Shown here: positions 21,184-54,568 of the stretch, in pieces
Layout: every line of letters begins with the position of its first letter
Position numbering within the stretch: position 1 is the first letter of the stretch
NCBI GenBank assembly: GCA_902362365.1
Contig: CABIVQ010000001.1
Span: forward strand, 124,001 to 188,000
DNA: 64,000 nt
Reading direction: 5' to 3'
From: Clostridiaceae bacterium
GTDB lineage: Bacteria; Bacillota; Clostridia; Peptostreptococcales; Peptostreptococcaceae
Notes under the pieces: generated by a model
Databases searched by the model: none
What the model was told of the DNA's origin: nothing
Seen by the model: only the letters and a program-made list of their open reading frames with translations
Translations under genes and position numbers: made by a program

Positions 21184-21535
21184 GGGGGCGTAAAGGTTTC
21201 GACGTGGGTTTGGAACTTGGGGCTGCGTGTCGTGTTACTCTGGGTCACGTAAAAACTGGGGAATTAAAAATAAACGCAAACGATAATTACGCTTTAGCAG
21301 CTTAATGACTGCTCGTCCCGCCTAAGCCCTCCTGCCGGCTAGGCCTGGACGTCATCTATGCAGGGTACTACTTTTGGGGTGTCTCGACCAAAAGCGGACT
21401 AACTGGGACTGGCCAATCACATAGCCTGCCGCTTGGCGATGTGAAAGGCGAGATACTAAGTAAAGTTGGCTACACACGTAGATGCAACGAGGAAAAGACT
21501 TACGGACAGGGGTTCGACTCCCCTCGTCTCCACCA
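21184..21535 (+). ncRNA. ssrA: tmRNA (10Sa RNA)
   Basis: The 5' GGGGGCG (21184-21190) pairs with CGTCTCC (21525-21531) to form the acceptor stem, followed by ACCA at 21532-21535, so CCA is encoded. The T-arm is CAGGGGTTCGACTCCCCTC. The resume codon GCA at 21276 opens a tag reading frame encoding ANDNYALAA, ended by TAA at 21303-21305. GC content is far above its surroundings. The 3' end of this gene is duplicated at four further places in the window. Confidence 0.97.
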
Positions 21536-21550
21536 TTGAAATCCACGAAA
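21525..21550 (+). repeat. Attachment-site copy 1: ssrA 3' end plus flank
   Basis: CGTCTCCACCA of ssrA followed by TTGAAATCCACGAAA. This 26-base unit, or a close variant, recurs at 26739, 45850, 50683 and 54505. The 3' end of ssrA is a well-known integration site for phage-like and satellite islands. Confidence 0.8.
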
Positions 21551-21578
21551 AATATTAGCGATTTGCTAATATTTTTTT
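21551..21578 (+). terminator. Terminator of ssrA
   Basis: AATATTAGC / GCTAATATT stem with a five-base loop and a run of T. Each of the other four att-like copies is followed by an equivalent hairpin of unrelated sequence. Confidence 0.88.
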
Positions 21579-21761
21579 ATTTGCCAAAAACAAATTTAAT
21601 AAGTATAATTGTGAGCTTAACACATGATACATCCATTAAAACATGTTTTTTTCAATTACAAGAAACAAATGGTGTGAATAACTAATAAAAGAAAAGCCTG
21701 TAATATCTATTGAGGATTTAATTAATAATAATGAAAACCAAAATAAAAAATAAATTATAAA

Positions 21762-22107
21762 ATGATTATATCAAAGATTAAAAATCAACTAATAATAGAA
21801 GCTCTTAGTTTAGTTGTTATGGGTATACTTAAAAGAAATAACATTTATTATAGAATAAACTCTGCTTACAATGATAAGGTAAAAAAGTTTTCGAAAGTAA
21901 GGATTTTCCGTATAAAAGTGATATATTATTTGGATAAATATCTATGAAGGAAAAAGATCAGAAAAGATAGTTTTTTATGCACAGGATAAAGAAATATCTA
22001 TTAAAAAAGCCAGTGAAATATTGCTAGATATTAAGAATATATTAAATAAAGAGTTATATAATAAAATAGAAAATAAGTATTGTAATATATTGGAAATCGT
22101 TATATAA
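21762..22107 (+). pseudogene. Decayed small gene next to ssrA
   Basis: A frame starting MIISKIKNQLIIEALSLV runs to a stop at 21947. The neighbouring frame then continues from 21946 with YEGKRSEKIVFYAQDKEIS to a TAA at 22105-22107. Joined by one frameshift the two give a protein of about 115 residues. A further coding-like scrap (KPVISIEDLINNNENQNKK) lies just upstream at 21694-21753. No family is recognised. Its position beside the attachment site is where an island's integration module would sit. Confidence 0.4.
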
Positions 22108-22124
22108 TGTTTTTATAGAGTTAA

Positions 22125-22189
22125 CGTGTAACTATTAAATTAGGCATGAGTTCTTAGATAATTTTATTCTGAGGATTCGTGCCTTTTTT
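22125..22189 (+). promoter_or_regulatory. Leader terminator with possible LicT antiterminator site
   Basis: A 17-bp stem that includes four G-U wobbles (22142-22158 with 22168-22184), followed by T6, lies 40 bases before the EIIA gene. Just upstream, GTAACTATTAAATTAGGCATGAGTTC loosely resembles the ribonucleic antiterminator (RAT) near 23559 and overlaps the 5' arm of the terminator, as RAT elements do. The terminator is convincing; the RAT call is weak. Confidence 0.55.
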
Positions 22190-22229
22190 ATTTAAAAGGG
22201 AATCCTTATACTAAATAGGGGGCAATTCA

Positions 22230-22712
22230 ATGTTAAACTTTTTCAAAAAAAATAAAAGTTATAAATTAGAAGCTACAGTGAGCGGTAATAGTATAAATAT
22301 TGAGAAAGTAAATGATTCTATGTTCTCAAAAAAATTAATGGGGGATGGAATAGCAATTATTCCAAACAATGATATTGCTTTAGCACCTTGTGATGGTAAA
22401 ATAACTGTACTTCCAGAGTCAAAACATGCTTTTGGTATGGTTACAGATGAAGGCGTTGAAATATTAGTTCATATAGGAATTGATACCGTTAATTTAAAAG
22501 GTGATGGATTTAGAACAGCAGTATCTCAAGGAGATGTTGTTAAAAAGGGAGACCCAATAATTTATTTTGATAGAGAAAAAATAGCTTCTCAAGGAGTAGA
22601 TACTACAACGATGATGATTGTATTAAATCATACAGAATTCTCAAAAGTAAATTGCATAACGGAGAATGAAGTTGTTGCTGGGCAAGACACTGTTATTGAA
22701 ATTATGAAATAG
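22230..22712 (+). CDS. PTS glucose-type EIIA protein
   Basis: A 160-residue free-standing EIIA of the glucose superfamily (Crr-like). It takes phosphate from HPr and passes it to an EIIB. H66 (PESKHAFG) and the phosphorylated H81 (VEILVHIGIDTVNLKGDGF) are both present. It supplies the EIIA activity missing from the EIICB permease encoded at 23669. The stretch GGGGGC precedes the ATG. It is the first gene of an apparent EIIA-LicT-EIICB-GH4 operon. Confidence 0.92.
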   Translation: MLNFFKKNKSYKLEATVSGNSINIEKVNDSMFSKKLMGDGIAIIPNNDIALAPCDGKITVLPESKHAFGMVTDEGVEILVHIGIDTVNLKGDGFRTAVSQGDVVKKGDPIIYFDREKIASQGVDTTTMMIVLNHTEFSKVNCITENEVVAGQDTVIEIMK

Positions 22713-22733
22713 TAGGGAAGGAAGTAATTTAAT

Positions 22734-23549
22734 ATGATAGCAGTAAAAATCTTTAACAATAATGCATTATCAACAGTGACTGATGATGGAAAAGATGCAA
22801 TCATACTAGGGCTTGGTATAGGTTTTAATAAACGCCCAGGTGATCAAGTTAATGAGGATAAAATAGAAAAAATATATTATGTTCAAGATGATATGCAAAC
22901 TAAATTCTTAGAACTATTAAATAACGTAAGTCCAGAAGTTATGGATGCATCAAATGAAATCATAAGACTTATTCCAAATAATGATGGGAAGTTTAATAAT
23001 AAAGGTATATTATCTCTAATAGAACATATTAGTTTTGCAATAGAAAGAACAAAAAATAATGTATTTTTACCTAATTTAATGCTATCGGATATAAAAGTGA
23101 TGTATTCAAAAGAGTTTGAATTAGGAATGAATGCTTTAAGTATTATAAATAAGCGATGTCAGACTAATTTACCCGAAGATGAAGCGGGTTACATAGCTCT
23201 ACATTTTGTGAATATGCAATCAAATGATAATCTAGCATATGATACCTTAAAATTTGTAAAAGGTAGTATGGATCTAGTTAAAGAATGCTATGGCCTAGAA
23301 TTAGATGAATTAAGTTTAAGTACAATACGTTTTATGACTCATCTTAAGTTTCTTGCACAAAGAATTTTTAAGAAAGAAACCTATGAAGATGAGAAAATGG
23401 TTGAAATGTATGTGTATTTACTTACAAAGCATCCAAAAAATGTAGAATACCTAGAAAAGCTAAATGAATACATTGAAAAAGAGTTTAAATATAAATTAGA
23501 TAAACCTGAAATGATTTATATATTATTACATTTAACAAAAATTTTATAA
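22734..23549 (+). CDS. licT: BglG/LicT-family transcription antiterminator
   Basis: A 271-residue RNA-binding antiterminator. The N-terminal CAT domain (about 1-56, beginning MIAVKIFNNNALSTVTDDGKD) binds RAT hairpins. PRD1 (about 65-170) and PRD2 (about 171-271) carry the regulatory His residues (IEHISFAIERT, AGYIALHFVNM, FMTHLKFLAQR, YILLHLTKIL). PTS phosphorylation of these residues couples activity to sugar transport. A textbook RAT-terminator follows directly downstream and would be its target. Symbol by family; the exact orthologue is not certain. Confidence 0.9.
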   Translation: MIAVKIFNNNALSTVTDDGKDAIILGLGIGFNKRPGDQVNEDKIEKIYYVQDDMQTKFLELLNNVSPEVMDASNEIIRLIPNNDGKFNNKGILSLIEHISFAIERTKNNVFLPNLMLSDIKVMYSKEFELGMNALSIINKRCQTNLPEDEAGYIALHFVNMQSNDNLAYDTLKFVKGSMDLVKECYGLELDELSLSTIRFMTHLKFLAQRIFKKETYEDEKMVEMYVYLLTKHPKNVEYLEKLNEYIEKEFKYKLDKPEMIYILLHLTKIL

Positions 23550-23558
23550 ATATAAAAT

Positions 23559-23627
23559 GGATTGTGACTGGTAATGCAGGCAAGACCCAGAAAAGTAGCA
23601 TAGTAGATATGCATTTTTGGGTCTTTT
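23559..23627 (+). promoter_or_regulatory. RAT antiterminator overlapping an intrinsic terminator
   Basis: The stretch at 23559-23587 starts GGATTGTGACTGGTAATGCA and ends GGCAAGACC, a close match to LicT/SacY-type RAT sequences. It overlaps the 5' arm of a terminator (AAGACCCA at 23582-23589 with TGGGTCTT at 23618-23625, then T-run), so the two structures are mutually exclusive. It controls the downstream EIICB and GH4 genes. Confidence 0.88.
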
Positions 23628-23668
23628 TTATTTAAATAAAACTATATAATCTAGGAGGAGGTATAAAA

Positions 23669-25219
23669 GTGAAAGAAAAACTACTTGGAGGATTAGAAAC
23701 ATTTGCAAAAGCAATGGTTCAACCGTTAATGTATCTATCAAGTGCAGGTATATTAATGGTAATAGGGGTATTACTCACAAATGATATACTAACAGGTGTA
23801 ATTCCATTTTTGAAGTGGGAACCAATACAAATATTTGGGGATTTAATTTATAACTGCGTGATGGCTATTATTAACAATCTTTCAGTTATATTTGCAATAG
23901 GAATTCCAGCTGCATTAGCGAAGAAAGAAAAGCATAAAGCAGCATTAATAGGATTTATGAGTTACTTTATATATCTTACAACTTCAAACACTATATTGAC
24001 TGCCTTAGAGCAGTTAGCTGAGCCAAGTAAAATGCTTGGATTAATAGGAACTGGTCAAGCGACTATTTTAGGTATACAAGTTGTAGATACAAGTGTATTT
24101 GGTGGTATTATTTTAGGTTGTATAACAGGATATATATTTAACCGTACAAGTCAAAAGACATTTAAAGGCGCTTTACAAATATATTCTGGAGCAAACTTCA
24201 GTTTTATATGTATGTTCTTTGTAGCTATTTTATTTGGTGTAGCTATGAATTATGTATGGCCATTAGCTCAACAAGGAATTGCATCTCTTGCAAATGTTAT
24301 CAAAAATACTGGTACATTTGGTTTATTCTTATATGGTTTCCTAGAAAGAATATTAGTTCCAACTGGACTACATCACTTAATATATACACCATTCCAATTC
24401 TCTGATTTAGGTGGAGTACTTCAAGTAGGTTCAGAAACTGTAGCAGGAGCTTATGCAATAGTAATGACAGAAATGAATATGCCAATAGAGCGTTTCTCAG
24501 AGAGTATATATTATATGGCAACTGGATTTACAAAGATGTTTGGGTATATAGGTATAGGAGCAGCATTTATTCATACAGCACATAAGCATAACAAGAAAAA
24601 AGTTAGAGCAGCAATTATTCCATTAATAGTTACAGCAGCATTAGCGTCTGTAACAGAGCCTCTAGATTTTATGTTTGTATTCTGTGCACCATTATTATTT
24701 GTTGTACATTCAGTTATATCAGGACTTTTCATAGCATTACTAAAAATATTTGATGTTACTGCATTCTGTGGAGGTAACTTATTAGTATCAATAATAATGA
24801 ATACTACAGTAGGAGCAGCAAAAACAAATTGGCCAGTGATGATGATATTAGGAATAGTACAAATTCTTGTATACTTCATAGTATTTAGTTTCTTAATTAA
24901 GAAATTCAACTTCAAAACGCCAGGGCGTGAAGATGAGGAAATTGCTACAGATAAAGAGCAATCAAATAAAATTAATTCAGATACAAATATAGAAAATATA
25001 ATCAATGGATTAGGTGGAAAAGAAAATATAAATACAGTAGAAAATTGTATTACTAGATTACGTGTTAATGTAAAAGACGAAAGCTTAATAAATGAAGATA
25101 CAATAAACTTAACACCAAATAGTGGTATTGTAAGAAAAGGGAAAAATATACAAATAATCTTTGGACTTCATGTACCAGATGTAAGGCGTTCAGTAGCAGA
25201 TTACCTAGAAGCATATTAA
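23669..25219 (+). CDS. PTS EIICB, alpha-glucoside (maltose) type
   Basis: A 516-residue sugar permease-phosphotransferase. The EIIC membrane domain spans about residues 1-420. A short linker leads to an EIIB domain with phospho-accepting C460 in ENCITRLRVNV. There is no fused EIIA, which matches the separate EIIA gene upstream. The neighbouring 6-phospho-alpha-glucosidase indicates alpha-glucosides such as maltose or trehalose-like sugars as substrates. The start is GTG with AGGAGGAGG 8 bases upstream. Confidence 0.9.
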   Translation: MKEKLLGGLETFAKAMVQPLMYLSSAGILMVIGVLLTNDILTGVIPFLKWEPIQIFGDLIYNCVMAIINNLSVIFAIGIPAALAKKEKHKAALIGFMSYFIYLTTSNTILTALEQLAEPSKMLGLIGTGQATILGIQVVDTSVFGGIILGCITGYIFNRTSQKTFKGALQIYSGANFSFICMFFVAILFGVAMNYVWPLAQQGIASLANVIKNTGTFGLFLYGFLERILVPTGLHHLIYTPFQFSDLGGVLQVGSETVAGAYAIVMTEMNMPIERFSESIYYMATGFTKMFGYIGIGAAFIHTAHKHNKKKVRAAIIPLIVTAALASVTEPLDFMFVFCAPLLFVVHSVISGLFIALLKIFDVTAFCGGNLLVSIIMNTTVGAAKTNWPVMMILGIVQILVYFIVFSFLIKKFNFKTPGREDEEIATDKEQSNKINSDTNIENIINGLGGKENINTVENCITRLRVNVKDESLINEDTINLTPNSGIVRKGKNIQIIFGLHVPDVRRSVADYLEAY

Positions 25220-25284
25220 ATAAAAATATTGATAGATTAAATAAAAATTATTAAGGGATAGATATAGTAGAGGAGGAATATATT

Positions 25285-26637
25285 ATGATTATTACTGTTG
25301 TTGGTGGAGGAAGTACATTTACTCCTGGGATTGTTAAATCAATTGCGCAAAGAGCAAAAGAGTTGGATTTAGATGAGATTCGTTTATTTGACATTGATAA
25401 AGAAAGACAAGATAAAGTAGCTGTGGTTGTTGAGTGGATATTAAGAGAAGATGTTAAGACAGATGTTAAGTTAACTGTAACAAATGATGTTAAAGAAGCT
25501 TACACTGATGCTACATTTGTATTTGCACAAATGCGTGTTGGTAAATATGAAATGCGTGAACAAGATGAAAAAATACCACTAAAGCATGGCTGTGTAGGTC
25601 AAGAAACTTGTGGTTGCGGAGGTATGGCATACGGACTTCGTACAATAAACCCAATGATAGACCTTATAGATGATGTAGAAAAATACGCTAAGAAAGATCA
25701 CTGGATATTAAACTACTCTAACCCGGCAGCTATAGTTTCAGAAGCTTGCCGTAAGTTAAGACCAAATGCAAGAATAATAAATATATGTGATATGCCAATA
25801 GCTATAATAGATATAATAGCTGAATCATTAGGTATAAAAGATGTTAACAATATAGTTTATGACTACTTTGGATTAAATCACTTTGGGTGGTTTACATCTA
25901 TAGAGTACAAAGGTAGGGATATAATGGCGGAAATAAAAGAATACATAAAGAAACATGAAATATTACTGCCTGAATCTTATATAGAAAGAATAAAGAAAGC
26001 TCAAAGTGTAGGAAATCGTCATGCTGTAAGTAGCTGGAATCACGTTTGGAAATCAGTTTACACAATGCTAGAAAGTTTCCCAGATTACTTACCTAATACT
26101 TATTTAACATATTACCTTTTAGCTAAGGAAACAGTAGAGAAATCAAATATAGACCGTACTCGTGCAAATGAAGTTATGGAAAGTCGTGAAAAAGACTTAT
26201 TTGAAGGCGTAGAGCACTACTTAAAAACAGGTGAAATATCACAAAAGGCATTCTATGCAGGGTCACACGGAGATTGGATAAGTGATTTAGCAGTTGCGAT
26301 AAAAAATGATACAAAGGCTCGTTTCTTAGTTATAACTGAAAATCGCGGAACTATACCAAATATGCCATATGATGCAATGGTAGAAGTACCAGCATACATA
26401 GGAAAGAATGGTCCAGAAGTTATAGCTAGAGGTCCAATACCTCTATTCCAACAAGGATTAATGATGCAACAAGTTAATAGTGAAAAACTAATAGTAGAAG
26501 CGTGTGTAGAAAATAGTTACGAAAAGGCACTACAAGCATTTACTTTAAATAAAACTGTTCCAAGTATGAGGGTTGCTAAAGCTATATTAGATGATATGAT
26601 AGAAGCTAATAAAGGATACTGGCCAGAATTAAGATAG
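25285..26637 (+). CDS. 6-phospho-alpha-glucosidase (GH4)
   Basis: A 450-residue NAD+- and divalent-metal-dependent glycosidase of family GH4. It has the dinucleotide-binding VVGGGSTFTPG at the N-terminus, NYSNPAA, and the metal-binding CDMP motif at C168. CDMP distinguishes the alpha-glucosidase branch from the CNVP of 6-phospho-beta-glucosidases. It would cleave the phosphorylated disaccharide imported by the EIICB. GAGGAGG precedes the ATG. It is the last gene of island I. Confidence 0.93.
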   Translation: MIITVVGGGSTFTPGIVKSIAQRAKELDLDEIRLFDIDKERQDKVAVVVEWILREDVKTDVKLTVTNDVKEAYTDATFVFAQMRVGKYEMREQDEKIPLKHGCVGQETCGCGGMAYGLRTINPMIDLIDDVEKYAKKDHWILNYSNPAAIVSEACRKLRPNARIINICDMPIAIIDIIAESLGIKDVNNIVYDYFGLNHFGWFTSIEYKGRDIMAEIKEYIKKHEILLPESYIERIKKAQSVGNRHAVSSWNHVWKSVYTMLESFPDYLPNTYLTYYLLAKETVEKSNIDRTRANEVMESREKDLFEGVEHYLKTGEISQKAFYAGSHGDWISDLAVAIKNDTKARFLVITENRGTIPNMPYDAMVEVPAYIGKNGPEVIARGPIPLFQQGLMMQQVNSEKLIVEACVENSYEKALQAFTLNKTVPSMRVAKAILDDMIEANKGYWPELR

Positions 26638-26737
26638 TAAAATATCTTTAGTAATAAAGACTTTGTCCTTGTATGACCCTCGGATAAAAATTGTGTAGGA
26701 ATGTATAAATTTAAATCGTGGGTATTATTGCTGAGAG

Positions 26738-26795
26738 TCGTCTCCACCATTGAAATCTACGAAAAAGGTATTGATTATTAAGTCAATACTTTTTT
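26738..26795 (+). repeat. Attachment-site copy 2 with terminator
   Basis: TCGTCTCCACCATTGAAATC, then TACGAAAAA, matches the ssrA 3' junction with one change. The preceding bases (GCTGAGAG) do not match ssrA, so homology begins at the acceptor-stem end. The hairpin GTATTGA/TCAATAC plus T7 follows, unlike the ssrA terminator in sequence but identical in layout. Confidence 0.8.
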
Positions 26796-27147
26796 TATTA
26801 CAAGAAAACTATAATACTTTGAAATCTGTGGAAAACTTGTGTATTAAAATCATATCAATATATTCAGGAAAGTAAAAAGTGACAAAAATGTCGTAAGCAT
26901 AGATTATATTATTAGTGGATGTCACCATAAAAATAAGTTCGCAATTGTTATATAATGTGTATAAACTATATAAAGTTTAATAAATAACTGTATTTTAGCT
27001 TTAAAAGATTTGAATTGCTAAGATATAGTTATTTTTATATTATACTTATCAAAATGAAACTAGCATAACAAATCTTTATTATAAAAATTAATATTTTATG
27101 TAACGAAATAGATTTTTTTAGGATATATATTCGAAGGAGGTGATGGT
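26796..27147. other. Intergenic region between att copy 2 and the sigma gene
   Basis: No gene recognised. Immediately before the sigma gene, TGTAACGAAATAG is followed about 16 bases on by GATATATA. An AAC-containing -35 of this kind is typical of ECF-controlled promoters, so autoregulation is possible but unproven. Confidence 0.35.
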
Positions 27148-27630
27148 GTGCATGAAATGGACGGTATATATAAAGAACATGCACAGATGGTTTTTAGGTA
27201 TTTAATGAGCCTTTGTAAAGAAGAACAACTAGCAGATGAACTTACACAAGAAACATTTTATCGTGCAATAAAATCCTCAAATAGATATGATGGAACTTGT
27301 AAAATATCTACTTGGTTATGTCAAATTGCAAAACACGTTTGGTATCAAGAGCTTGATAAGAGAGCTAGAAAGGGAACTTTTGAATTAAATGATGAAACAC
27401 CATCTACAAATACTGGTGTGGAAGAGGCTATCTGTTTAAAAGAAAATAAAATGGAGTTTATGAAACAAATTTATAAGCTAGACCAAACTTCAAAAGAAGT
27501 AGTATTACTTAGAATAACAGGTGCATTTTCATTTAAAGAAATTGGTGAAATACTTAATAAAAATGAAAATTGGGCAAGAGTTACATATTATAGAGTTAAA
27601 CAAAAAATAGTGAAGGGAGGAACTATATGA
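27148..27630 (+). CDS. ECF RNA polymerase sigma factor
   Basis: A 160-residue sigma-70-family factor with region 2 at about 5-70 (FRYLMSLCKEEQLADELTQETFYRAI) and region 4 at about 105-155 (KEVVLLRITGAFSFKEIGEILNKNENWARVTYYR). The start is GTG with AAGGAGG 7 bases upstream. Its stop overlaps the ATG of a zinc-finger anti-sigma gene (ATGA), the usual sigma/anti-sigma arrangement. The regulon is unknown. Confidence 0.9.
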   Translation: MHEMDGIYKEHAQMVFRYLMSLCKEEQLADELTQETFYRAIKSSNRYDGTCKISTWLCQIAKHVWYQELDKRARKGTFELNDETPSTNTGVEEAICLKENKMEFMKQIYKLDQTSKEVVLLRITGAFSFKEIGEILNKNENWARVTYYRVKQKIVKGGTI

Positions 27631-28238
27631 AGTGTGAAATTATAAAGGACCTTTTACCAAGTTATGTTGACGAACTAACAAGTACTGAAAGTAATATAGA
27701 AATTGAAAAGCATTTAGAGTCTTGTATTTCATGTAAAGAAGAATTGAATAAAATGAAAGAAGATATAAGCATAGAAGAAATAAAATTGAATAAAAAAGAT
27801 ATTAAACCATTGAAGAAATTAAATAAAAAAGTTCTAAAATATGTTATTATAACTATTTTGGCTGAAATAACTTTAGTAGGTTCATATTTTCATTTCTTTG
27901 GATTTGATTGGAAAGTAAATTCAAATGATTTATATGTTGCATATTACTTAAAAGATGACATTATATATTTTGACTTTGAATTAATGAATGGTAGAGTACT
28001 TAATGCATGGACTGATGTTGAAGAGCCTTATACAATATCATTTACAGAGTGTTTTGGAAGTGTTTTAGATGATAAAGGTGTGCATCCGAATGAGTTTTCT
28101 TATAGAATACACTACAGAAATGAAAAGGGGAAAATTATATTTAAAGATGGTGATACTTTAAAGTTAAAGTTCAAAGATAAGGTAGAAGAAATTAACTTGA
28201 ATAAAATTGTAGAAGAGCTTAAAATAAATAAACATTAA
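27627..28238 (+). CDS. Membrane anti-sigma factor with zinc-finger domain
   Basis: A 203-residue protein. The N-terminal zf-HC2-type motif HLESCISCKEEL (H-x3-C-x2-C) is typical of ZAS anti-sigma factors. One transmembrane helix (YVIITILAEITLVGSYFHFF, about residues 72-91) is followed by an extracytoplasmic domain of about 110 residues. It overlaps the sigma gene by 4 bases and should hold that factor at the membrane until a signal arrives. The outer domain matches no family I recognise. Confidence 0.85.
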   Translation: MKCEIIKDLLPSYVDELTSTESNIEIEKHLESCISCKEELNKMKEDISIEEIKLNKKDIKPLKKLNKKVLKYVIITILAEITLVGSYFHFFGFDWKVNSNDLYVAYYLKDDIIYFDFELMNGRVLNAWTDVEEPYTISFTECFGSVLDDKGVHPNEFSYRIHYRNEKGKIIFKDGDTLKLKFKDKVEEINLNKIVEELKINKH

Positions 28239-28455
28239 TTAGTAGAATGAGAACTTGAAAGTAGGAGTACATTAAGACGATATTGTTTTTGCTTCGGTAA
28301 TAGACTTGATGAACAATATTAATATATTGCGAACAATTTATATCAAACTGAATAAATAACCATACCTTATAATTCAAATTATTGAAAATACTAAGGTATT
28401 ATAAAAATTGAAATTGTGGATAAGTAGTGTATAAAAAATAGTATGAATATTATGA

Positions 28456-28650
28456 CAAAAACAAACAATAACGATAAAAGAAATATTAAGAGATAACTAT
28501 GATAGATTTAAAAAAGAAATGTGGTATTGAGTTTCAAAGGACATGAGGAGTCATATAGATGATACAGTTAGAAAAGCCTTAAGTTGTGGTGATATTAGTA
28601 AAGGATTTAGAGAATACATGTGTTTTAAATGTGGCGTTAGCCACTCAAGG
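28456..28650 (+). pseudogene. Fragment of an IS91-like transposase (N-terminal zinc-binding region)
   Basis: One frame reads KEILRDNYDRFKKEMWY, an in-frame TGA at 28528-28530, then VSKDMRSHIDDTVRKAL and FREYMCFKCG. This resembles the zinc-binding N-terminus of IS91/IS801-type transposases. It then runs into a terminator hairpin with no catalytic domain. No ends of the element could be identified. The stop and truncation make it a relic. Confidence 0.6.
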
Positions 28651-28672
28651 TCCCCTTTAGGGGATTTTTTTT
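28651..28672 (+). terminator. Short GC-rich terminator
   Basis: TCCCC-TTTA-GGGGA followed by eight T, directly after the transposase fragment. Confidence 0.75.
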
Positions 28673-28681
28673 ATTACATAA

Positions 28682-28783
28682 ATTCCTATCATAGATTATA
28701 ACCACATACAAAAATACTTTGATACTATATACTCATCAAACGAAATCAAACAAAAAATAGAATACGAAACCAAAAAATTATAA
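28682..28783 (+). pseudogene. C-terminal coding scrap before the replication module
   Basis: A 33-codon frame ending YFDTIYSSNEIKQKIEYETKKL has the Lys/Glu-rich composition of real coding sequence and the same A/C-rich plus strand as the genes that follow. No start or ribosome-binding site is present. It is probably the tail of a lost gene of the satellite module. No family recognised. Confidence 0.3.
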
Positions 28784-28867
28784 AACACTTTATTAAAATA
28801 CTTTAATACAAGGTGAAAAAATTTTCTGATAACATCTATCTAATATAACAAAACAGGAGGAAATAAA

Positions 28868-29068
28868 ATGAATTACAAAATAAACATACCACTAATAGAA
28901 ACTAAAATGCTACAAAAAGGCTACTCACTAACAAAACTAGCATCAATAGCAAACACTTCGACATCAACCGTAGCAAGAGTAATAAACAAACAAGGAACAC
29001 CAAGACCACAAACCATATACAAAATAGCTCAAGCACTAGAACTAGAAACATCAGAAATACTACTATAA
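28868..29068 (+). CDS. Small helix-turn-helix DNA-binding protein (Cro/CI-like)
   Basis: A 66-residue protein consisting of one HTH: GYSLTKLASIANTSTSTVARVIN and a C-terminal TIYKIAQALELETSEILL. It resembles phage and satellite repressors or excision-type regulators. CAGGAGG lies 6 bases upstream. The CHC2/VapE gene begins 22 bases downstream, so the two form a small replication/control module. Confidence 0.85.
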   Translation: MNYKINIPLIETKMLQKGYSLTKLASIANTSTSTVARVINKQGTPRPQTIYKIAQALELETSEILL

Positions 29069-29089
29069 ACATAATCACAGGGGGTAAAC

Positions 29090-46111: not shown

Positions 46112-46147
46112 AGTTTAAACTAATGAACGGAAGGTAGATGAATTTAT

Positions 46148-46924: not shown

Positions 46925-46939
46925 GCTATGGAGTATTTT

Positions 46940-47305
46940 ATGGAAATAGAATGTAAAGAAAGAATAGAAGAAATAACGTCTAAATTTAAAGAATGCCGTA
47001 AAGCTATTTCTGCTATGGGTGATGAAACTAGACAGCTGATTTTAATTACGTTACTAGAGAGTGACTTTAATGGAATACGAGTGGGGGAAATCACAGAAAA
47101 AACACATCTTTCTCGTCCTGCTGTATCTCATCATCTTAAAATATTGAAAGAAGCAGAAATTGTTAATGTACGTAGAGAAGGAACGAAGAACTATTATTAT
47201 TTTGATTCAAAGAAATCACAATGGAAATCACTAACAGAACTAATAAATCTTATATTTGTTGGAATACAACATATTGGTGAAAATGATGTAATAAAAGGTG
47301 AGTAA
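46940..47305 (+). CDS. ArsR-family transcriptional repressor
   Basis: A 121-residue winged-helix protein. The HTH reads IRVGEITEKTHLSRPAVSHHLKILKEAEIVNVRREGTKNYYYF (split: recognition helix SRPAVSHHLKIL, wing RREGTKNYYYF). The ATG at 46928 is also in frame, but ATGGAG at 46928-46933 spaces well to ATG 46940. It has no obvious paired-Cys metal motif of the CVCD type, so it may be a redox or thiol sensor rather than a metal sensor. It probably controls both facing units through the mirror dyads. Confidence 0.88.
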   Translation: MEIECKERIEEITSKFKECRKAISAMGDETRQLILITLLESDFNGIRVGEITEKTHLSRPAVSHHLKILKEAEIVNVRREGTKNYYYFDSKKSQWKSLTELINLIFVGIQHIGENDVIKGE

Positions 47306-47322
47306 ACCAATAAAAGAAGGTA

Positions 47323-48071
47323 TTATTTTAAATAATACCTTCTTTTATTTTGAGTATTATTTTTATACTCAATAGCCTCAGTAGGGCAACCACAAATACA
47401 TGCCATACAATGAGTACAGTTATTTTTCCAAACTGGTTTTTGATTTTTTAAATTAATATTATTTAGAGGACATAGTGTTACACACTCTCCACAGCCAATG
47501 CATTTATTAGTATAATGAAATCCCTTTGCATGGACAAATATTTTATAAAAAGCTGTATTTGTTATACCACTTTTAAGTGTACCACTTAAGCCACTAGGGT
47601 TAATAATTTCAAATTCATTTTCAGATTTTATATCAGAAATAATTTTATTTATTTGTTTATCTGATTCTTTAATGATTTGTGTTGATGTTTCTTTATCTGG
47701 TACAGAAAATAAAGCGATATAATTCTCTGGTATTTTAATTTCTGCTATACCTTTTAGTTGCCATTCTTTATATTTACATAACTTTTGAATATATTTTATG
47801 GCTTTTCCTGTATCACCTCCACAAGTCATTATAAAATATACTTTGTTACTTCCTGAAAATCTTGTTTTTTTATAAAATCAGTAACGACTATTGGCAATCT
47901 CCATGCATAAGTAGGGCATACGAATATGAATGGTTTATCTGTTGATATTAATTCATCTGTTTTTTCTTCTTTTATAAGTTGATTTAATGATATTAGTTGA
48001 TCATTTAATTCTTGTGCAATTTTGCGAGCTACATATCAGCTATTACCAGTACCGCTAAAATATAAAATCAT
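47323..48071 (-). pseudogene. EFR1-family flavodoxin-ferredoxin, disrupted
   Basis: Starting at ATG 48071 (GGGAGATAT upstream) the frame reads MILYFSGTGNS, an in-frame TGA at 48036-48038, then YVARKIAQELNDQ, PFIFVCPTYAWRLPIVVTDFIKK. It then shifts by one base in a run of A (47866-47872) into MTCGGDTGKAIKY and ends with two ferredoxin motifs (CIGCGECVTLCP, CTHCMACICGCP). Nonsense plus frameshift inactivate it. EFR1 proteins are fused flavodoxin-ferredoxin electron carriers of anaerobes. It converges on arsR, with an inverted repeat of AAGGTATTATTT between them (47316-47347). Confidence 0.85.
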
Positions 48072-48182
48072 AATTATATCTCCCTAACTATTTTTTTATT
48101 TTAACCTTTAATATTTTTGATCTAATAAAGTGATTTATCGATATATTGTATTCAATAAATATAAAACTTACTAGTTAAAAAA

Positions 48183-48245
48183 ATTATATCATATTAATAT
48201 TTTTTATATTTATTGGTAAAGAATTTGATTACCATTAAATTTTAA
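48183..48245 (-). promoter_or_regulatory. Operator-promoter of the EFR1 gene (right mirror copy)
   Basis: A 49-base segment at 48197-48245 is the reverse complement of 46048-46096 with one substitution and one single-base gap. Its dyad is at 48214-48234. On the minus strand the -10 TATAAT is at 48188-48183, the same distance from the segment as in the left copy. Confidence 0.7.
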
Positions 48246-48600
48246 GGTCTATTTATGGTGATTTAAATAATGTACTTGAAAATATAGACTTTATTAATCT
48301 AAAAGATATAATAATTTACAATGACAACTATAGCTTATTTTTCTATAAAGATAACATGATAAAAGTAAAATAATAAAAATACTACAAAATGGAATCAAGA
48401 GACTAGTAACGATATTAGGTGCATATTGAGGAGGTAAACCTAGTTTAGTTATGAATACCATAAGAGAAGCATTGGGTAAAGACTTGATTGATTTTTATGG
48501 TGTTGTATGGATTTTTTATTATAAAAAATTGAAAATGTAACAAAAAATGACATATTGGAATATAATAATATGAAACATATGGTATATGGAGGTTGAGTAT
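48246..48600. other. Intergenic region with coding relics
   Basis: A frame 48249-48374 (SIYGDLNNVLENIDFINLKD...IKVK) and another (GIKRLVTILGAY, stop, GGKPSLVMNTIREALGKDL, about 48391-48500) look like tails of lost genes. Neither has a start. No family recognised. Confidence 0.35.
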
Positions 48601-49560
48601 ATGGATATAAAGTGGATTATAGTTATAATTATAATTATACTTGCCCTATTCTTATATAGATGGATAATACAAAGAAAACAAGCTATTAATAATGTCCTAC
48701 AAAGAAGTGATGAAGAAAAAATTAAAGATATTAATAATGTACTAGAGTTATATAGTTTTGTATATGATGAAACTAATGATATTATATGTTCAAGTATGTA
48801 TCCTTGGCAAAGAGAGGTAGGGTATTGTAGATTTTATGATGAAGCAGCACCTGCCTTAAATATGATTATTGATAGTGAGCCTATTTATTTTGAATATGAT
48901 AATAGAAGATGGCTTATTGAATTTTGGAAAGGTCAGTATGGAATGACTACTGGTGGCGAAATTGGTATATATGTAACTGATATGGATGATATTAATATAC
49001 CAGGTATTTTTTCAGGTCCTTTTTTCAAAGCCGTATCAGATAAAGAACTCTTAAATATGGATTTTAAGCTTAAAATATGTGAAAAAAAATTGTTTCAAAG
49101 AAAAGATTATCATTGGTGGCTAACAGGCTTTGATGTAGGTGTATTTTCTAATCCTCGTAAGTTATCAATGGAAATTAGGATAATTTTTCCGAATATAATT
49201 ATGAAACATGCATTTCTTAGTGGATTAAAAAGAGCAGGTTATAAAGAAGATGAAATTAAAATAATTAAGAATACAATTTATTTTGATTTTAATAAACCCA
49301 AGTCAGATCAACCACGTAATCGTTACAAATTGATAATACCTTTTATCCAATTGATGAATAAAACCTACTGCAAGATATATAATTTAATTACTAAAGATTT
49401 TACACGTACAATAGATAAAATTGATTTTTTACGATTATACTATCCTAATTTGTTTATGTTAATTGTAGGTAAAAATAGAATGAAAAAATTACAAAAATCT
49501 TATAAAGTAATTTCATTTTATATAAATAGAAATGAGATGAGAAGTAATGAGCACTTATAA
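48601..49560 (+). CDS. DUF4474-like protein with N-terminal membrane helix
   Basis: A 319-residue protein with one N-terminal hydrophobic helix (WIIVIIIIILALFLYRWII) and then a soluble domain. The core SSMYPWQREVGYCRFYDEAAP and EFWKGQYGMTTGGEIGIY matches what I remember of DUF4474. The function is unknown. GGAGG at 48588-48592 spaces to ATG 48601 rather than to 48586. Its last 14 bases overlap the metallophosphoesterase gene, implying translational coupling and a shared role. Confidence 0.75.
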   Translation: MDIKWIIVIIIIILALFLYRWIIQRKQAINNVLQRSDEEKIKDINNVLELYSFVYDETNDIICSSMYPWQREVGYCRFYDEAAPALNMIIDSEPIYFEYDNRRWLIEFWKGQYGMTTGGEIGIYVTDMDDINIPGIFSGPFFKAVSDKELLNMDFKLKICEKKLFQRKDYHWWLTGFDVGVFSNPRKLSMEIRIIFPNIIMKHAFLSGLKRAGYKEDEIKIIKNTIYFDFNKPKSDQPRNRYKLIIPFIQLMNKTYCKIYNLITKDFTRTIDKIDFLRLYYPNLFMLIVGKNRMKKLQKSYKVISFYINRNEMRSNEHL

Positions 49561-50464
49561 ACGCTTATCCAAAGTCTATGAAAATTCTAAGGTTATTCCT
49601 TATGATTATTCTTCAAAATTTGTCATAATGAGTGATTGCCATAGGGGTAGTGGAAATTCAGGAGATAATTTTCTAAAAAATCAATATATATTTTTCGCGG
49701 CACTTAATGATTACTACAAAAAAGGATTTACTTATATTGAATTAGGTGATGGAGATGAACTTTGGGAAAATAGATCTATGGAACAGATTATTGAAGTACA
49801 CAGTAGTACATTTGAACTATTATCTAAATTTTATGAGTCAGACAGAATGTATATGATTTATGGTAATCATGATATGCAAAAAAGTGATACAGAATTTTTA
49901 GAGTGTCATTACAAAGGACACTATTGTGGAATAAGAAAAAAGTTTTTTTCATTATTTAATTATATAAAAGCATATGAAGGAATAATTCTAGAAAATGAAG
50001 ATAATAATCAACATAGAATCTTTCTCCTACATGGTCATCAAGGAGATTTGATTAATGATAGACTGTGGAAATTAGGTAAATTTTTAGTTCGTTATATCTG
50101 GAGACCACTAGAGATATGGGGATTTAACGATCCTACAAGAGCAGCTAAAAATTATAGAAAGAAAAATAGCATAGAACAACAATTGATAACATGGTCAAAA
50201 GAGAATAACATAATGTTAATTACAGGTCATACTCATAGATCTAGTTTTGCTAACTTAGATGAACCAATGTATTTTAATTCAGGAAGTTGCATACATCCAA
50301 CAGCAATTACAGCTATAGAGATTGAATATGGTCGTATTAGCTTAGTGAAATGGAGTATTATGACAAGAGAAGATAATAGTATATATGTAGGAAAAGAGGT
50401 TTTAAAAGGACCGGTAAAATTAGAAGATTACTTTTTAAAAAATATAAAAATAGAAAACTTTTAA
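49547..50464 (+). CDS. Calcineurin-like metallophosphoesterase
   Basis: A 305-residue protein with all five metallophosphoesterase motifs in order: SDCHRGSG, GDGDELWENR, YGNHD, LHGHQGD and GHTHRS. The middle W/R-rich segment (LVRYIWRPLEIWGF) resembles membrane-associated, LpxH-like hydrolases, but lipid A is not expected in this kind of organism. The substrate may be another pyrophosphate or nucleotide. It overlaps the DUF4474-like gene by 14 bases. Confidence 0.88.
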   Translation: MSTYKRLSKVYENSKVIPYDYSSKFVIMSDCHRGSGNSGDNFLKNQYIFFAALNDYYKKGFTYIELGDGDELWENRSMEQIIEVHSSTFELLSKFYESDRMYMIYGNHDMQKSDTEFLECHYKGHYCGIRKKFFSLFNYIKAYEGIILENEDNNQHRIFLLHGHQGDLINDRLWKLGKFLVRYIWRPLEIWGFNDPTRAAKNYRKKNSIEQQLITWSKENNIMLITGHTHRSSFANLDEPMYFNSGSCIHPTAITAIEIEYGRISLVKWSIMTREDNSIYVGKEVLKGPVKLEDYFLKNIKIENF

Positions 50465-50841
50465 GTAGTTAAAAGCTGATTTCTATATTGATAAGAGATT
50501 GATTTTTTAGTTAATACTTTAATTACTGGACAATATAACCTACTATAGATATTACAATATAGATTTTCATATAAAATACATTGAAATAGATGACATGATG
50601 CTATAAAGGTTAGTTGTTGATAAAATTTTAAATAAATTAGGTCGTATAAAAATGATTAATCATAAGTATAATACCTATAATTCGTATCTAGCATTTAAAT
50701 TTACGAAAACCACATTGATGTAATAATCAATGTGGTTTTTTACGTATAACATTATTTTTGATAAAATAATTAAAATATGCTATAAAAAATAAAACCTTTT
50801 ATAAATACAAATCGTTATATAAGTGAAAGGGTGATGATAAT
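50465..50841. repeat. Intergenic region containing degenerate attachment-site copy 4
   Basis: CGTATCTAGCATTTAAATTT then ACGAAAA at 50683-50709 matches copy 3 at 22 of 26 positions. It is followed by the hairpin CCACATTGAT/ATCAATGTGG and T6 (50709-50740). The hairpin starts with the same CCA-AT-TT-A pattern as the one after copy 5. The remaining sequence shows no gene. Confidence 0.6.
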
Positions 50842-51426
50842 TTGGCACAGACAGATGAAAAATTAATTAAAGAAATACTAAAAGGGAACGAAAGTGCAAT
50901 GGAAATACTAGTAAAAAGACATTACGAGCTTGTACATAGTTACATATATAGAGCTACGAATGATCACAATATAGCCTATGATATAACACAAGAAGTATTT
51001 ATAAAAATGATGAAAAATATAGATAAATATAATTTGGGAAATGGTAAGTTCAGAAATTGGATATTAAAAATAGCTGTAAACGCAACAAAGGATTATTTTA
51101 AAAGTAATACGTATAAGCAAAGAAGTGAAATTTGTGATATAGAAAATCATCAAATAGGAGATAAATCAAATGTTATTGATATAATTTCTAAAAAAGAAGA
51201 ATCAATAAAAATTAAAGAAGCTATAAAAAAATTACCAAATCGTCAAAGAGAAGCCATACTTCTAAAGTACTACAATGATTTAAAAATAAAAGAGATAAGT
51301 AACATAACAGGAGATAATGAAAATACTATAAAATCGAGACTATTCAATGGAATTAAAAATCTTAAAAAATTACTTGGAGGTGATATATTTGAAGAAAAAT
51401 ATGAGTATTCACAGTCTAAGATGTGA
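50842..51426 (+). CDS. ECF RNA polymerase sigma factor
   Basis: A 194-residue sigma-70-family factor. Region 2 is at about 20-90 (LVKRHYELVHSYIYRATNDHNIAYDITQEVFIKMM) and region 4 at about 130-180 (KLPNRQREAILLKYYNDLKIKEISNITGDNENTIKSRL). The start is TTG after AAAGGGTGAT. Its 3' end overlaps the next gene by 38 bases. It heads an operon with an ABC exporter, an arrangement typical of envelope-stress or antimicrobial-peptide responses. Confidence 0.88.
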   Translation: MAQTDEKLIKEILKGNESAMEILVKRHYELVHSYIYRATNDHNIAYDITQEVFIKMMKNIDKYNLGNGKFRNWILKIAVNATKDYFKSNTYKQRSEICDIENHQIGDKSNVIDIISKKEESIKIKEAIKKLPNRQREAILLKYYNDLKIKEISNITGDNENTIKSRLFNGIKNLKKLLGGDIFEEKYEYSQSKM

Positions 51427-52237
51427 AAATATAGAAGATGAAAAATTTGAAGAACTACTAGAATTAGATTTAATAGATATAGATGAATTTTTAGATAGTT
51501 ACGTTGTTAATAACGTTGATGAGGTAAAAATTGATTCAACAATAGATACATTAAAAACATATATGCCAAAACCAGAAGTACAAGTTATCAAGGAGAAAAG
51601 TGGAACTTTAGATAAAATAAAAGAAAATATAAACCTAGTAAAATTTCAATTTAGTTTAATGAATAAAGCATATTTTATAGCATCACTATTATTAATACTT
51701 GTAGGAACTATAACTACAATAAAGTTAAATTTAAGTACATATTTTAGTGCATCTATAATTGCACCAATACCAATATTACTTGGAATGTTTGACATAATTA
51801 AAGGTAGAGAGGAAAATGTATGGGAGTTAGAGCTTAGTTATAAATACTCTTTAAGAGAAATTGTTTTATCAAGGTTAATAATTATAAATACAGTTTCTAT
51901 AGTAATGAGCATTGCTATGAGTATTATATTAAATAATACATACTCACAAATCAATCTATTAAAAATGATTAGTATATGGTTAATTCCAGTATTTATAATA
52001 GGGGCAATATCTTTAATTATTACTTCATTATACAGAAGTATAAATAGCATTACTTTATGTACATCAATCTGGATATTAGGCGCAATGAGTATTAGTATAT
52101 ATGAAAACATAGCTGATATAACTAATATTAATACATTTATAGTTTTAATTGTATCTATAATATTTGCATTAGGATCGATGAAATTATTTTACAAGAAAAG
52201 TATAAATATTATAGATTATATAACGTTTGATTTCTAG
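51389..52237 (+). CDS. Six-helix membrane protein, probable anti-sigma factor
   Basis: A 282-residue protein starting at TTG 51389, 8 bases after GGAGG; the longer frame from 51347 lacks such a site. An acidic cytoplasmic N-terminus of about 85 residues (ENIEDEKFEELLELDLIDIDEF) precedes six hydrophobic segments. There is no zinc-binding HCC motif. By position after an ECF sigma gene the N-terminus is the likely sigma-binding part. No named family is recognised. Confidence 0.65.
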   Translation: MKKNMSIHSLRCENIEDEKFEELLELDLIDIDEFLDSYVVNNVDEVKIDSTIDTLKTYMPKPEVQVIKEKSGTLDKIKENINLVKFQFSLMNKAYFIASLLLILVGTITTIKLNLSTYFSASIIAPIPILLGMFDIIKGREENVWELELSYKYSLREIVLSRLIIINTVSIVMSIAMSIILNNTYSQINLLKMISIWLIPVFIIGAISLIITSLYRSINSITLCTSIWILGAMSISIYENIADITNINTFIVLIVSIIFALGSMKLFYKKSINIIDYITFDF

Positions 52238-52246
52238 GGGGATTTT

Positions 52247-53128
52247 ATGGAAATTATTATAAAAAATATAAGAAAAGAATTTAAAGATAAACTAGCAGTA
52301 GATAATTTTAATGCAACTTTAAATAGTGGAATATATGGACTACTGGGGACAAATGGAGCGGGTAAAACAACACTTATGAGAATACTTGCAGATGTATCAA
52401 ACCCAAGTAGTGGAGATATTTTAGTAAACGGAGAAAGTAAAAGTAAGCTAGGAGATAAGTACAGAGATTTAATAGGATATGTACCTCAAAATATAGGATT
52501 TTATAAAAATTTTACAGCAGAAAAATTTTTATATTATGTGGCAGCACTAAAAGGTATAGATAAGAAAATTGAGAAAAGTAAAGTAGATGAACTTTTAAAA
52601 TTTGTTAATTTAGAAAAAGATAGAAAAAGAAAAATAGGTAAATTTTCAGGTGGTATGAAACAAAGGTTAGGTATTGCTCAAGCTTTATTAAATGATCCTA
52701 AGATACTCATATTGGATGAGCCTACAGCAGGTCTTGATCCAAATGAAAGAATAAGGTTTAAAAATTTAATCTCACAATTATCGAAGGATAAAATAGTAAT
52801 ATTATCAACTCATATAGTTTCAGATATAGAGTTTATAGCAAACGAAATACTTGTTATGAAAGAAGGTAAACTAGTTGAAAAATCCTCATTAGAAGATATT
52901 CTAGATATTGTGAGGGGAAAGGTATATACATTAAGTGTTAATGAAGGAGATTTAGAAAATGTTCAAAATAAATTTAAAATATCTAGTATGATGAGAACAA
53001 ATAATGGAATCTGTGCAAGAGTAGTAGGAGATAATAAACCTGATATAAAAGAATTTAAATACATAGAAGAAGAACCAAATTTAGAAGATGTATTTTTGTA
53101 TTATTTTAATGAAAGTGTTAGAGTATAG
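52247..53128 (+). CDS. ABC transporter ATP-binding protein
   Basis: A 293-residue ATPase with Walker A GTNGAGKTT, Q-loop GYVPQNIGFY, signature FSGGMKQRLGIAQAL, Walker B LILDEPTAGLDP and the H-loop STHIVSD. The C-terminal extension of about 80 residues is typical of ABC-2 exporters. It is 9 bases after the membrane protein and 12 before the permease, so it is in one operon. The substrate is unknown; peptide antibiotic self-protection or sensing is a reasonable guess. Confidence 0.92.
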   Translation: MEIIIKNIRKEFKDKLAVDNFNATLNSGIYGLLGTNGAGKTTLMRILADVSNPSSGDILVNGESKSKLGDKYRDLIGYVPQNIGFYKNFTAEKFLYYVAALKGIDKKIEKSKVDELLKFVNLEKDRKRKIGKFSGGMKQRLGIAQALLNDPKILILDEPTAGLDPNERIRFKNLISQLSKDKIVILSTHIVSDIEFIANEILVMKEGKLVEKSSLEDILDIVRGKVYTLSVNEGDLENVQNKFKISSMMRTNNGICARVVGDNKPDIKEFKYIEEEPNLEDVFLYYFNESVRV

Positions 53129-53140
53129 GGGGATTTTGAG

Positions 53141-54295
53141 ATGATAGATTTGATAAAATTTGAGTTATATAAAATATTTTCTAAAAAGTCAGTACGCATA
53201 GTTTTATTGCTAACTGTGCTATTTAGTGCTTTTAATGCATTTGGGGAAAGTATAAATATGAAATCTAAAGGCCTAAATAGTATGAATGATGTGTATAGCG
53301 TTATGAAAGAACATGAAGGTAAGGTAATTATACAAGAAGGAATACTTAAAGCAGAAAATACAATAGAAAAACTAAAGGAAAAAGAAAAAAGAGGCGAAAA
53401 GCTAACTAAAGAAGAGATAGTTTATAGATATTATTTATATGAGGTAATGATAACTGATCCAGTCTATATGGTAAATAATGAATACTATACAATAGATGAA
53501 ATAAAAGATGAGATAAGTACGTTAGAAAACAATAATAAAACCGATACATATGAATATAAAAATCTTAATTTTGTATACGAAAAAGTAAAAAATATAGAAG
53601 AATCAAAGTATTATTTTAAATCTGGCTGGATATCAACTACTGACTTTAACGTTATAGCAACATTGATAACTACACTAATAGTAGTAGGATTAGCTACAAT
53701 TTTTAGTGATGAATACCAAAATAATAGTGCTCAAATAATGTTAAGTTGTAAACGTGGAAAGAATAAGTTGGTTTTATCTAAGATATTAACTGGACTAATA
53801 TATACAGTTATAATGTTTACTATAGTAAATGGTACATATATGCTTGGAGCTTTAAAATTTGATTTTACAGGATGGGACAAGCCTTTAGAGTTATTTAAAT
53901 ACTATAGAAATACTCCTTTTGATATGAGGGTGATTGATTTTTATATTACAGGATTAGGTGTTAGCTTTATAGGTGCGATGTTATTTTCATTAGTAACAAT
54001 GTTAGTATCTTTATTAGTAAGAAATAACATGATATCACTATTACTAAGTTTAGGTATGTACTATGTTCCAACATTTGTATCTGGTTTTATTCCCATAGAT
54101 TCTATGGCTAGAGTTCTTAGAGAAATTAATTTAGCAGAGGCGGTTAGGATAGAAGGTATGTTTATAAATCCTAGTACGTATAATATTTTGGGAAATCCAA
54201 CTCTGTATTCAACTGTATTAATAAGCTTAGTGGTTATATCTATACCGGTTGTAATATACTTAATAAGATATTTTGGAAAAAGACAAGCTATATAA
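53141..54295 (+). CDS. ABC-2 type permease
   Basis: A 384-residue membrane protein. One N-terminal helix (about 16-33) is followed by a large outer domain of about 130 residues rich in Glu and Lys, then five C-terminal helices (from about 170). This one-plus-five pattern is usual for ABC-2 permeases. It partners the ATPase immediately upstream. The gene ends the island IV operon about 200 bases before att-like copy 5. Confidence 0.85.
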   Translation: MIDLIKFELYKIFSKKSVRIVLLLTVLFSAFNAFGESINMKSKGLNSMNDVYSVMKEHEGKVIIQEGILKAENTIEKLKEKEKRGEKLTKEEIVYRYYLYEVMITDPVYMVNNEYYTIDEIKDEISTLENNNKTDTYEYKNLNFVYEKVKNIEESKYYFKSGWISTTDFNVIATLITTLIVVGLATIFSDEYQNNSAQIMLSCKRGKNKLVLSKILTGLIYTVIMFTIVNGTYMLGALKFDFTGWDKPLELFKYYRNTPFDMRVIDFYITGLGVSFIGAMLFSLVTMLVSLLVRNNMISLLLSLGMYYVPTFVSGFIPIDSMARVLREINLAEAVRIEGMFINPSTYNILGNPTLYSTVLISLVVISIPVVIYLIRYFGKRQAI

Positions 54296-54504
54296 TTAGT
54301 TAGTGAAATAGATAAATTCATTGTAAAATTCAAGCTAAGCTTTAATTTATTACTATTTTTTATATAAGTAAATTCTAAAATTATGATATATGTGTATACT
54401 AATGATTACTATATAAAAATGTCTGATATTAAGTTAAAAATTATTGGATAGACAATATAATAACTAATGCATGATTTAGACTATGGATTTTAAAAGTTAT
54501 GTAT

Positions 54505-54568
54505 CGTCTACACCATTGAAATTCACGAAAACCATATTAATGAAATAGTTAATATGGTTTTTATTTTA
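54505..54568 (+). repeat. Attachment-site copy 5 with terminator
   Basis: CGTCTACACCATTGAAATTC then ACGAAAA agrees with the ssrA junction at 25 of 27 positions. The hairpin CCATATTAA/TTAATATGG with a T-rich tail follows. If islands insert next to ssrA, this outermost copy is the oldest, and its hairpin may be the ancestral ssrA terminator. Confidence 0.75.

Follow-up and report, generated by a model that had tools for sequence, protein, structure and literature searches.

A one-orientation array of cassettes behind ssrA in a Peptostreptococcaceae genome, probably inserted in series by a CcrB-like large serine recombinase

Here we describe a tandem array of accessory cassettes lying directly behind ssrA, the gene for transfer-messenger RNA (tmRNA), in a Clostridiaceae bacterium placed in the Peptostreptococcaceae. 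The stretch analyzed, referred to as the window throughout, comprises 64,000 nucleotides of contig CABIVQ010000001.1 (assembly GCA_902362365.1, positions 124,001 to 188,000), and coordinates are counted from its first letter. We consider it likely, with a probability of roughly 0.83, that a CcrB-like large serine recombinase built the array by serial insertion of cassettes at the 3′ end of ssrA. The array probably holds five cassettes and extends to about 55.9–56.2 kb, i.e., beyond the approximately 33 kb ending at 54568 that a first-pass annotation of the same DNA had outlined. The anchor gene is located at 21184..21535 on the forward strand (ARAGORN; Rfam RF00023, 190.8 bits) and encodes the tag ANDNYALAA, and in a comparison of SmpB the nearest named relatives were Clostridioides, Peptacetobacter, and Metaclostridioides (83–88%).

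Five copies of a 26-bp core, all on the forward strand, begin at 21525, 26739, 45850, 50683, and 54505 and carry 0, 1, 2, 6, and 2 mismatches to the 26-mer, respectively, as the first-pass annotation had stated. A 20-mer search at up to 3 mismatches recovered four of the five copies in the window and gave no matches in 100 shuffles. The full site model amounts to 69.7 bits over 51 bp, and a 51-bp weight matrix with 83 sites as input (the window's own sites excluded) was used for scoring. Copy 1 (21525..21550, score 5.9) is made up of the last 11 nt of ssrA and a 15-nt right half-site, its left half being the ssrA T-arm, while copy 2 (26714..26764, score 78.4) has a clear left half, AATCGTGGGTATTATTGCTGAGAGT. 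The left half is matched at 11/25 positions in copy 3 (45850..45875, score 23.8), at 17/25 in copy 4 (50683..50708, score 26.9), and at 9/25 in copy 5 (54505..54530, score 11.7), which belongs to neither type clearly. The best score among 50 block-shuffled windows was −13.7, and beyond the five copies no site in the window scored above −5. At cassette-end sites in general, a left half with the consensus AATCGTGGGTATTATTCCTGTGAAT precedes the core, and at ssrA the T-arm takes its place. The outer arms of the site form an inverted repeat, with 5.92 of 8 positions matching over 84 sites when in register and none of ten slid registers exceeding 2.8; inverted repeats at element ends, a trait of staphylococcal cassette chromosome (SCC) elements that was tested for, are present.

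The repeat had been taken for the end of ssrA together with its flank, which holds for its first 11 nt but not for the remainder: the tmRNA ends at 21535, thus the other 15 nt of the 26-bp repeat lie outside the gene. Among six relatives whose ssrA flanks were compared, five (G015, G018, G019, G021, and G060; G numbers denote genomes and L numbers loci) do not have these 15 nt after the CCA, and the sixth (G071) has a variant of them. Because they are missing from five of six relatives, yet vary by only 0–2 changes in 17 arrays (picked for having a called ssrA-adjacent core), the 15 nt are, judging by sequence comparison, part of the inserted element and not of ssrA. We read them as one half of a putative recombinase site, the other half of which would close the cassettes at the right.

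The type of left half also bears on the agent of insertion, which the first-pass annotation had assumed to be a tyrosine recombinase. Displaced ends that we attribute to tyrosine integrases, seen in several genomes, show ...GACTCCCCT, the T-arm half, in front of the core; copy 26739, whose left half alone is clear in the window, is of the other form, and the left halves of the remaining copies are too worn to assign. The recombinase relic in the window (described below) is of the serine type, and the enzymes linked to arrays are CcrB-like serine recombinases. A tyrosine recombinase as agent is not supported, and we regard it as improbable that tyrosine-integrase islands built the array and lost their integrases afterwards, even though such elements do use ssrA in this family. 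Of 10 genomes searched, 4 have tyrosine-integrase matches at a distance of 0.15–3.4 kb downstream of ssrA (a fragment in G003, and G012, G032, and G059), and a G012 match with a stop codon and a G003 fragment are found deeper in arrays. Separately, a conserved displaced ssrA end (ATAACCACYTATAGACTC...) was noted at L088–L090, L092, L136, and L137, which probably represent tyrosine-integrase prophages or integrative and conjugative elements.

A hairpin with a T-run lies at most a few bases behind each of the five copies in the window, again as first described; the one directly 3′ of ssrA (21551..21578, forward strand, recognized from sequence) is read as the left end of cassette 1. In the regions fetched, a hairpin with T-run begins at most 8 nt from the core at 123 of 137 sites vs. 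285 of 3000 random positions, and the mean folding energy of the next 40 nt after the core is −10.4 vs. −2.9 kcal/mol at random positions (the 137 sites are those of these regions, related species included). Among 122 left arms of these hairpins 88 are different, and hairpin types recur across the family; the notion that each element brings its own terminator is retained, but not that the terminators are throughout non-homologous. In the sister genomes G054 and G055 (98.6% identical over 1 kb at ssrA), the matching DNA ends where the core ends, as expected if the newest cassette supplies the terminator. A 43-bp stretch of the window that includes a terminator hairpin (28631–28673) is identical to a stretch at 93631 in the array of G057.

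The 71 genomes searched for related arrays constitute the family of G003 (Metaclostridioides mangenotii). The core (at most 3 mismatches) was present in 37 of them, with a maximum of 27 copies in one genome, and a reversed control pattern had 0 matches. In the 19 genomes whose listed matches all fall on the ssrA contig, 83 copies were counted by hand, of which 61 share the strand of ssrA and lie within the 82 kb that follow it (the ssrA copy included), and the remaining 22 are elsewhere on the contig. A dispersed repeat unrelated to ssrA, which the first-pass annotation had raised against its own proposal, would thus suit these 22 copies but not the 61. Up to 18 sites were counted behind a single ssrA, including its own. 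When compared with its nearest relative, G057, the window is 90% identical up to 21552 and then has no match longer than 150 bp until 56172, where the right flank begins (56172..60844, forward strand, by sequence match); this flank is colinear with G057 and G071 and sits 253 kb behind ssrA in the former and 37 kb in the latter.

Stretches of 2.5–18.7 kb are shared between species, some of them from core to core. The longest, an 18.7-kb element, is 99.8% identical in G049 and G057, whose ssrA loci are 82% identical, and starts at a core; it adjoins ssrA in G057, while in G049 a 5.1-kb cassette separates it from ssrA. By sequence, these two genomes are an insertion/no-insertion pair across species with the breakpoint at the core. 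In addition, a 4.5-kb cassette reaching from core to core is 96.8% identical in G050 and G051 (ssrA locus 85–87%), and 2.5 kb at 98% are common to G003, G025, and G026. Shared blocks exceed the identity of the ssrA locus in five of seven pairs, e.g., G047/G057 (99.9% vs. 84%), G053/window (92.3% vs. 83%), and G049/G053 (93–97% vs. about 86%). Among 68 shared blocks (at least 90% identity and at least 800 bp, with the same scope as the 137 sites), 26/136 left and 20/136 right edges fall at cores, compared with about 3% expected. Shared cassettes, edges at cores, and hairpins together support the serial integration at the end of ssrA, with one terminator per element, that had been proposed from the window alone. 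Sites also decay with distance from ssrA when all arrays are pooled (rho −0.41, 73 sites).

The candidate enzyme is an array-linked protein with Resolvase, Recombinase, and zinc-ribbon domains, whose best NCBIfam match is the CcrB of SCC (E 3.5e−49, 167.9 bits against a cut-off of 900); searches of solved structures returned general serine-integrase relatives only. Genes or fragments at least 52% identical to it were found in 7 of the 71 genomes, the next relatives being at most 33% identical. The recombinase genes of G047, G057, and G049 are located between array sites, as are fragments in G015 (81%) and G053 (63%, with stops), and the gene of G022 lies 1.5 kb left of an array site; where placed, the gene is oriented like ssrA and has the next site 1.5–3.4 kb to its right. 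Two other serine recombinases were not counted as the array enzyme, one in G026 that is only a 33% relative and an internal one in G059 that was read as part of an IS607-type pair. Near the recombinase of G049, a 587-aa protein has a weak primase/helicase match (PHROG E 1e−6) and found no relative in the solved-structure search, and defence genes (KwaB-like, Lamassu, Hachiman HamA, and type I restriction) occur within or beside the few recombinase-bearing elements that were examined.

The window itself retains a degraded 3′-end fragment (126 bp) of an array-type serine recombinase gene at 34418..34543 on the forward strand, detected by tblastn and blastn. With the G057 query, tblastn gave E 8e−8 when only the local 1 kb was searched; for the whole window the values were 0.009 (G057), 6e−6 (G049), and 5e−4 (G065), and the reversed window had 0 matches. 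The earlier statement that no integrase remains is accurate insofar as a Pfam scan of 27 of 36 open reading frames (at least 80 aa, 21.5–56.2 kb; the other nine are minus-strand frames overlapping others) found no recombinase or integrase domain, but it missed this relic. No degenerate core was present in the 34.4–36.4 kb interval to its right. A second decayed relic of an array-type recombinase was seen within the G057 array at about 120.7 kb (L147).

Relatives of the enzyme on viral contigs carry the tmRNA 3′-end octamer within 400 bp of the gene in 27 of 44 cases (24 distinct contexts) vs. 84 of 4506 control stretches, which suggests that the enzyme family is tied to ssrA as a target. This count covers 46 of 80 viral loci (L233–L280 without L255 and L267; L281–L311 were left out), near-duplicates included, of which the 44 with at least 60 bp downstream were used. 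In our reading, some of the contexts are complete 3′ ends of tmRNA and others are inverted-repeat sites, while a few may be tRNAs; ARAGORN called a whole tmRNA in 2 of the 80 loci. A related inverted-repeat site is found at the end of the recombinase gene of L234 (49% identical), and inverted-repeat sites around the octamer were likewise noted beside recombinase relatives at L243, L251, L256, L258, and L259. The sequences of L245 and L246 coincide as far as TGGTGGAGGCG before diverging, one of them going on like tmRNA, which in our reading would place the crossover in the TGGTGGAGGCG stretch. On the viral contig L081, two cores flank a recombinase copy that is split in two frames.

From the sites, hairpins, shared stretches, recombinase relatives, and window relic present in these sequences, we infer the role of the enzyme in the reaction, its direction, the circular form, the position of the crossover, and movement in trans as follows. 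A circular cassette would be joined as AATCGTGGGTATTATTCCTG(T/C)GA(A/T)T - CGTCTCCACCA - TTGAAATCCACGAAA - hairpin/T-run, its outer arms forming the inverted repeat. Crossover within the shared CG(T/C)CTCCACCA would keep ssrA intact, and insertion would set the right half-site and the terminator of the cassette directly behind it, with each insertion displacing the older site and terminator downstream. The recombinase-free cassettes, which are the majority, would probably be mobilized in trans by recombinase-bearing ones.

A number of findings weigh against serial insertion by this enzyme. In the window, copies 3 and 5 retain little of the left half, and the empty site that the first-pass annotation had recommended looking for was not found, i.e., no genome was recovered with ssrA joined directly to the window's right flank. 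The block shared by G052 and the window was counted as not more alike than the ssrA locus (82% vs. 81%), and the blocks shared by G054 and G055 reach at most 97.6% vs. 98.6% at ssrA. Decay of the sites with distance is weak within arrays (P 0.039), so that the order of insertion is tentative. As for the enzyme, the G065 recombinase (57%) has no site within the 11.9 kb read, a site of the array type scoring above −5 occurs in only 2 of the 80 viral loci, and in G026 the stretch from ssrA to the first array site holds the 33% relative. Arrays are present in G053 and G048 with no Resolvase-domain protein at E ≤ 1e−6 (G053 has the decayed fragment only), as might be expected if a host enzyme such as XerC/D recombined the sites and the linked serine recombinase were a passenger; between 4 and 14 tyrosine recombinase matches were seen in every one of the 10 genomes searched. 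The octamer beside the serine recombinase in 27 of 44 viral relatives argues against such a host enzyme, and we judge it quite improbable. Pairs of tyrosine recombinases were seen among the matches of the 10-genome search. Lastly, 110/136 left and 116/136 right edges of shared blocks lie away from cores. Combined with the recurring hairpin types and the 22 of 83 copies away from ssrA, this would fit repeats that are ordinary terminators or dispersed repeats, the accessory genes having come by homologous recombination; conservation, however, spans 51 bp including a half outside the terminator, and core-to-core cassettes are common to species whose ssrA loci differ by 13–18%, and we hold this explanation to be very improbable.

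Clusters of sites were also found away from ssrA. Ten such sites (L121, L123, L124, L125, L134, L151, L161, L183, L186, and L187) have a T-arm-like left half (GGGGTTC-like), and eight of the ten are first in their cluster. Thirteen loci (12 of the ectopic arrays and L232) yielded no tRNA or tmRNA with ARAGORN, and Rfam found only a T-box in six of these. The genes upstream of five of the eight listed look-alike sites are of phage-type replication (VapE helicase, DNA polymerase, DnaC/DnaD); of the remaining sites, the first is preceded by aspS, the second by a GNAT gene, and the third by unscanned genes. Look-alike acceptors were not found in viral contigs (exact pattern) or in phages, where three Wolbachia phage matches were taken as chance. 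A tentative and rather doubtful extension would make the arrays a serine-recombinase counterpart of superintegrons, without the one-way attP-attB rule, with look-alikes as second landing pads and phages as possible carriers of cassettes. The ssrA site would then keep the cassette's right half, growth would need attP × hybrid ssrA/attP, and the one-way rule would consequently be lost.

The cargo of the window (forward-strand cassettes, annotated with Pfam unless stated otherwise) is diverse. Cassette 1 (21551..26738) encodes a phosphotransferase system (PTS) EIIA, a PRD/CAT antiterminator, a PTS EIIBC, and a family-4 glycosidase. Cassette 2 (26765..45849; Pfam, PHROGs, and Rfam) measures 19.1 kb and is probably composite, with genes for an extracytoplasmic function (ECF) sigma factor, a zinc-finger anti-sigma-type protein, an AraC regulator, a flavin oxidoreductase, a two-component system, and a 2160-aa surface-type protein, besides a DnaG-zinc/VapE primase-helicase (29090–30691; Pfam/PHROGs) and a c-di-GMP-I riboswitch (39080–39164; Rfam). 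The 2160-aa protein (39282–45764), encoded 3′ of the riboswitch, has F5/8-type, NPCBM, Ig-like, and FIVAR domains. Cassette 3 (45876..50682) comprises a split nitroreductase, ArsR, a ferredoxin-type protein, DUF4474, and a metallophosphatase; the nitroreductase (46148–46924) is broken across two reading frames. It is a mosaic, as 46048–47306, 47313–48245, and 48506–50510 match fetched regions of G014, G032, and G053 at 90–92% DNA identity, and only the block of G053 falls between two called cores. Cassette 4 (50709..54504), which holds an ECF sigma factor and an ABC transporter, matches a block in the G052 array at 82%. Probable cassette 5 (54531..55900) contains a Mor-family regulator and a metallo-beta-lactamase-fold protein; it has an 87.5% match to G031 (window positions 54498–55860) that begins at its core, the matches in G026 and G055 begin just right of a core, and that in G003 begins at no called core. 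Its right-end site was not found in the matrix scan of the window. PADLOC had no match for three proteins from cassettes 3 and 4, a comparison of 21184–26800 with a phage collection gave four short, unrelated matches only, and cassette-end queries against plasmid and phage collections gave short, chance-level matches only.

The array is of interest because accessory genes enter here at a single anchored site, as discrete cassettes that all face one way, and because copies are present in 37 of 71 related genomes. Serial insertion would explain how an essential RNA gene, in spite of repeated insertions, retains both its end and a terminator. The enzyme and the sites that this model predicts are open to direct testing. 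No account of such arrays in this family was found in the literature searched, which left most subscription journals outside. Integrons accumulate recombinase-free cassettes in one orientation at an anchored site, and the stacking described here is alike in this respect, but the recombinase is of another family and the cassettes are operon- to island-sized. With the staphylococcal SCC (CcrA/B/C) the arrays have in common CcrB as best match, inverted repeats at the ends, a gene-end target, and composite tandem elements (the last three are given for SCC in PMC10061031, which, like the second source cited below, is drawn on here in part); they differ in the target, ssrA instead of rlmH, and in a recombinase far below the CcrB cut-off (167.9 vs. 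900 bits). The same source describes SCC-like elements in ssrA of Clostridioides difficile and Clostridium perfringens that have a large serine recombinase and cargo of the conflict type. It reports that the C. difficile element has a known empty site, that the islands encode Pol-SSB primases, and that ssrA-end repeats occur in one other species. Our arrays share the target gene, the large serine recombinase, and the conflict-type cargo, and, unlike those elements as described in the portions of PMC10061031 drawn on here, show family-wide arrays, paired half-sites, and portable terminators. In Dehalococcoides (PMC3146451), tandem islands downstream of ssrA are bounded by direct repeats of its 3′ end, some of the islands, but not all, encode the CcrB-like serine recombinase DsiB, a conserved motif absent from ssrA stands just left of each repeat, insertion is inferred in the middle of the T-loop with a repeat of 20 bp of ssrA, and a six-gene module lies beside attL on the reverse strand. 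The arrays described here resemble them in the tandem islands with ssrA-end repeats and a CcrB-like recombinase (a relic only in the window, and enzymes likened by description) as well as in the motif left of the repeats that ssrA does not have. In contrast to that system, as far as the available portions of the source describe it, the repeat here consists of 11 nt of ssrA and a 15-nt half-site, most sites have their own terminator, and the recombinase gene, where placed, lies closer to the right site and is oriented like ssrA. Tandem serine-recombinase islands (PMC3146451) and SCC-like elements (PMC10061031) at ssrA are therefore known already; leaving priority in print aside, we present the arrays of this family as a new variant characterized by a pair of half-sites, by insertion close to the last 11 nt of ssrA, by a portable terminator on most sites, by up to 18 sites behind one ssrA, and by look-alike acceptors.

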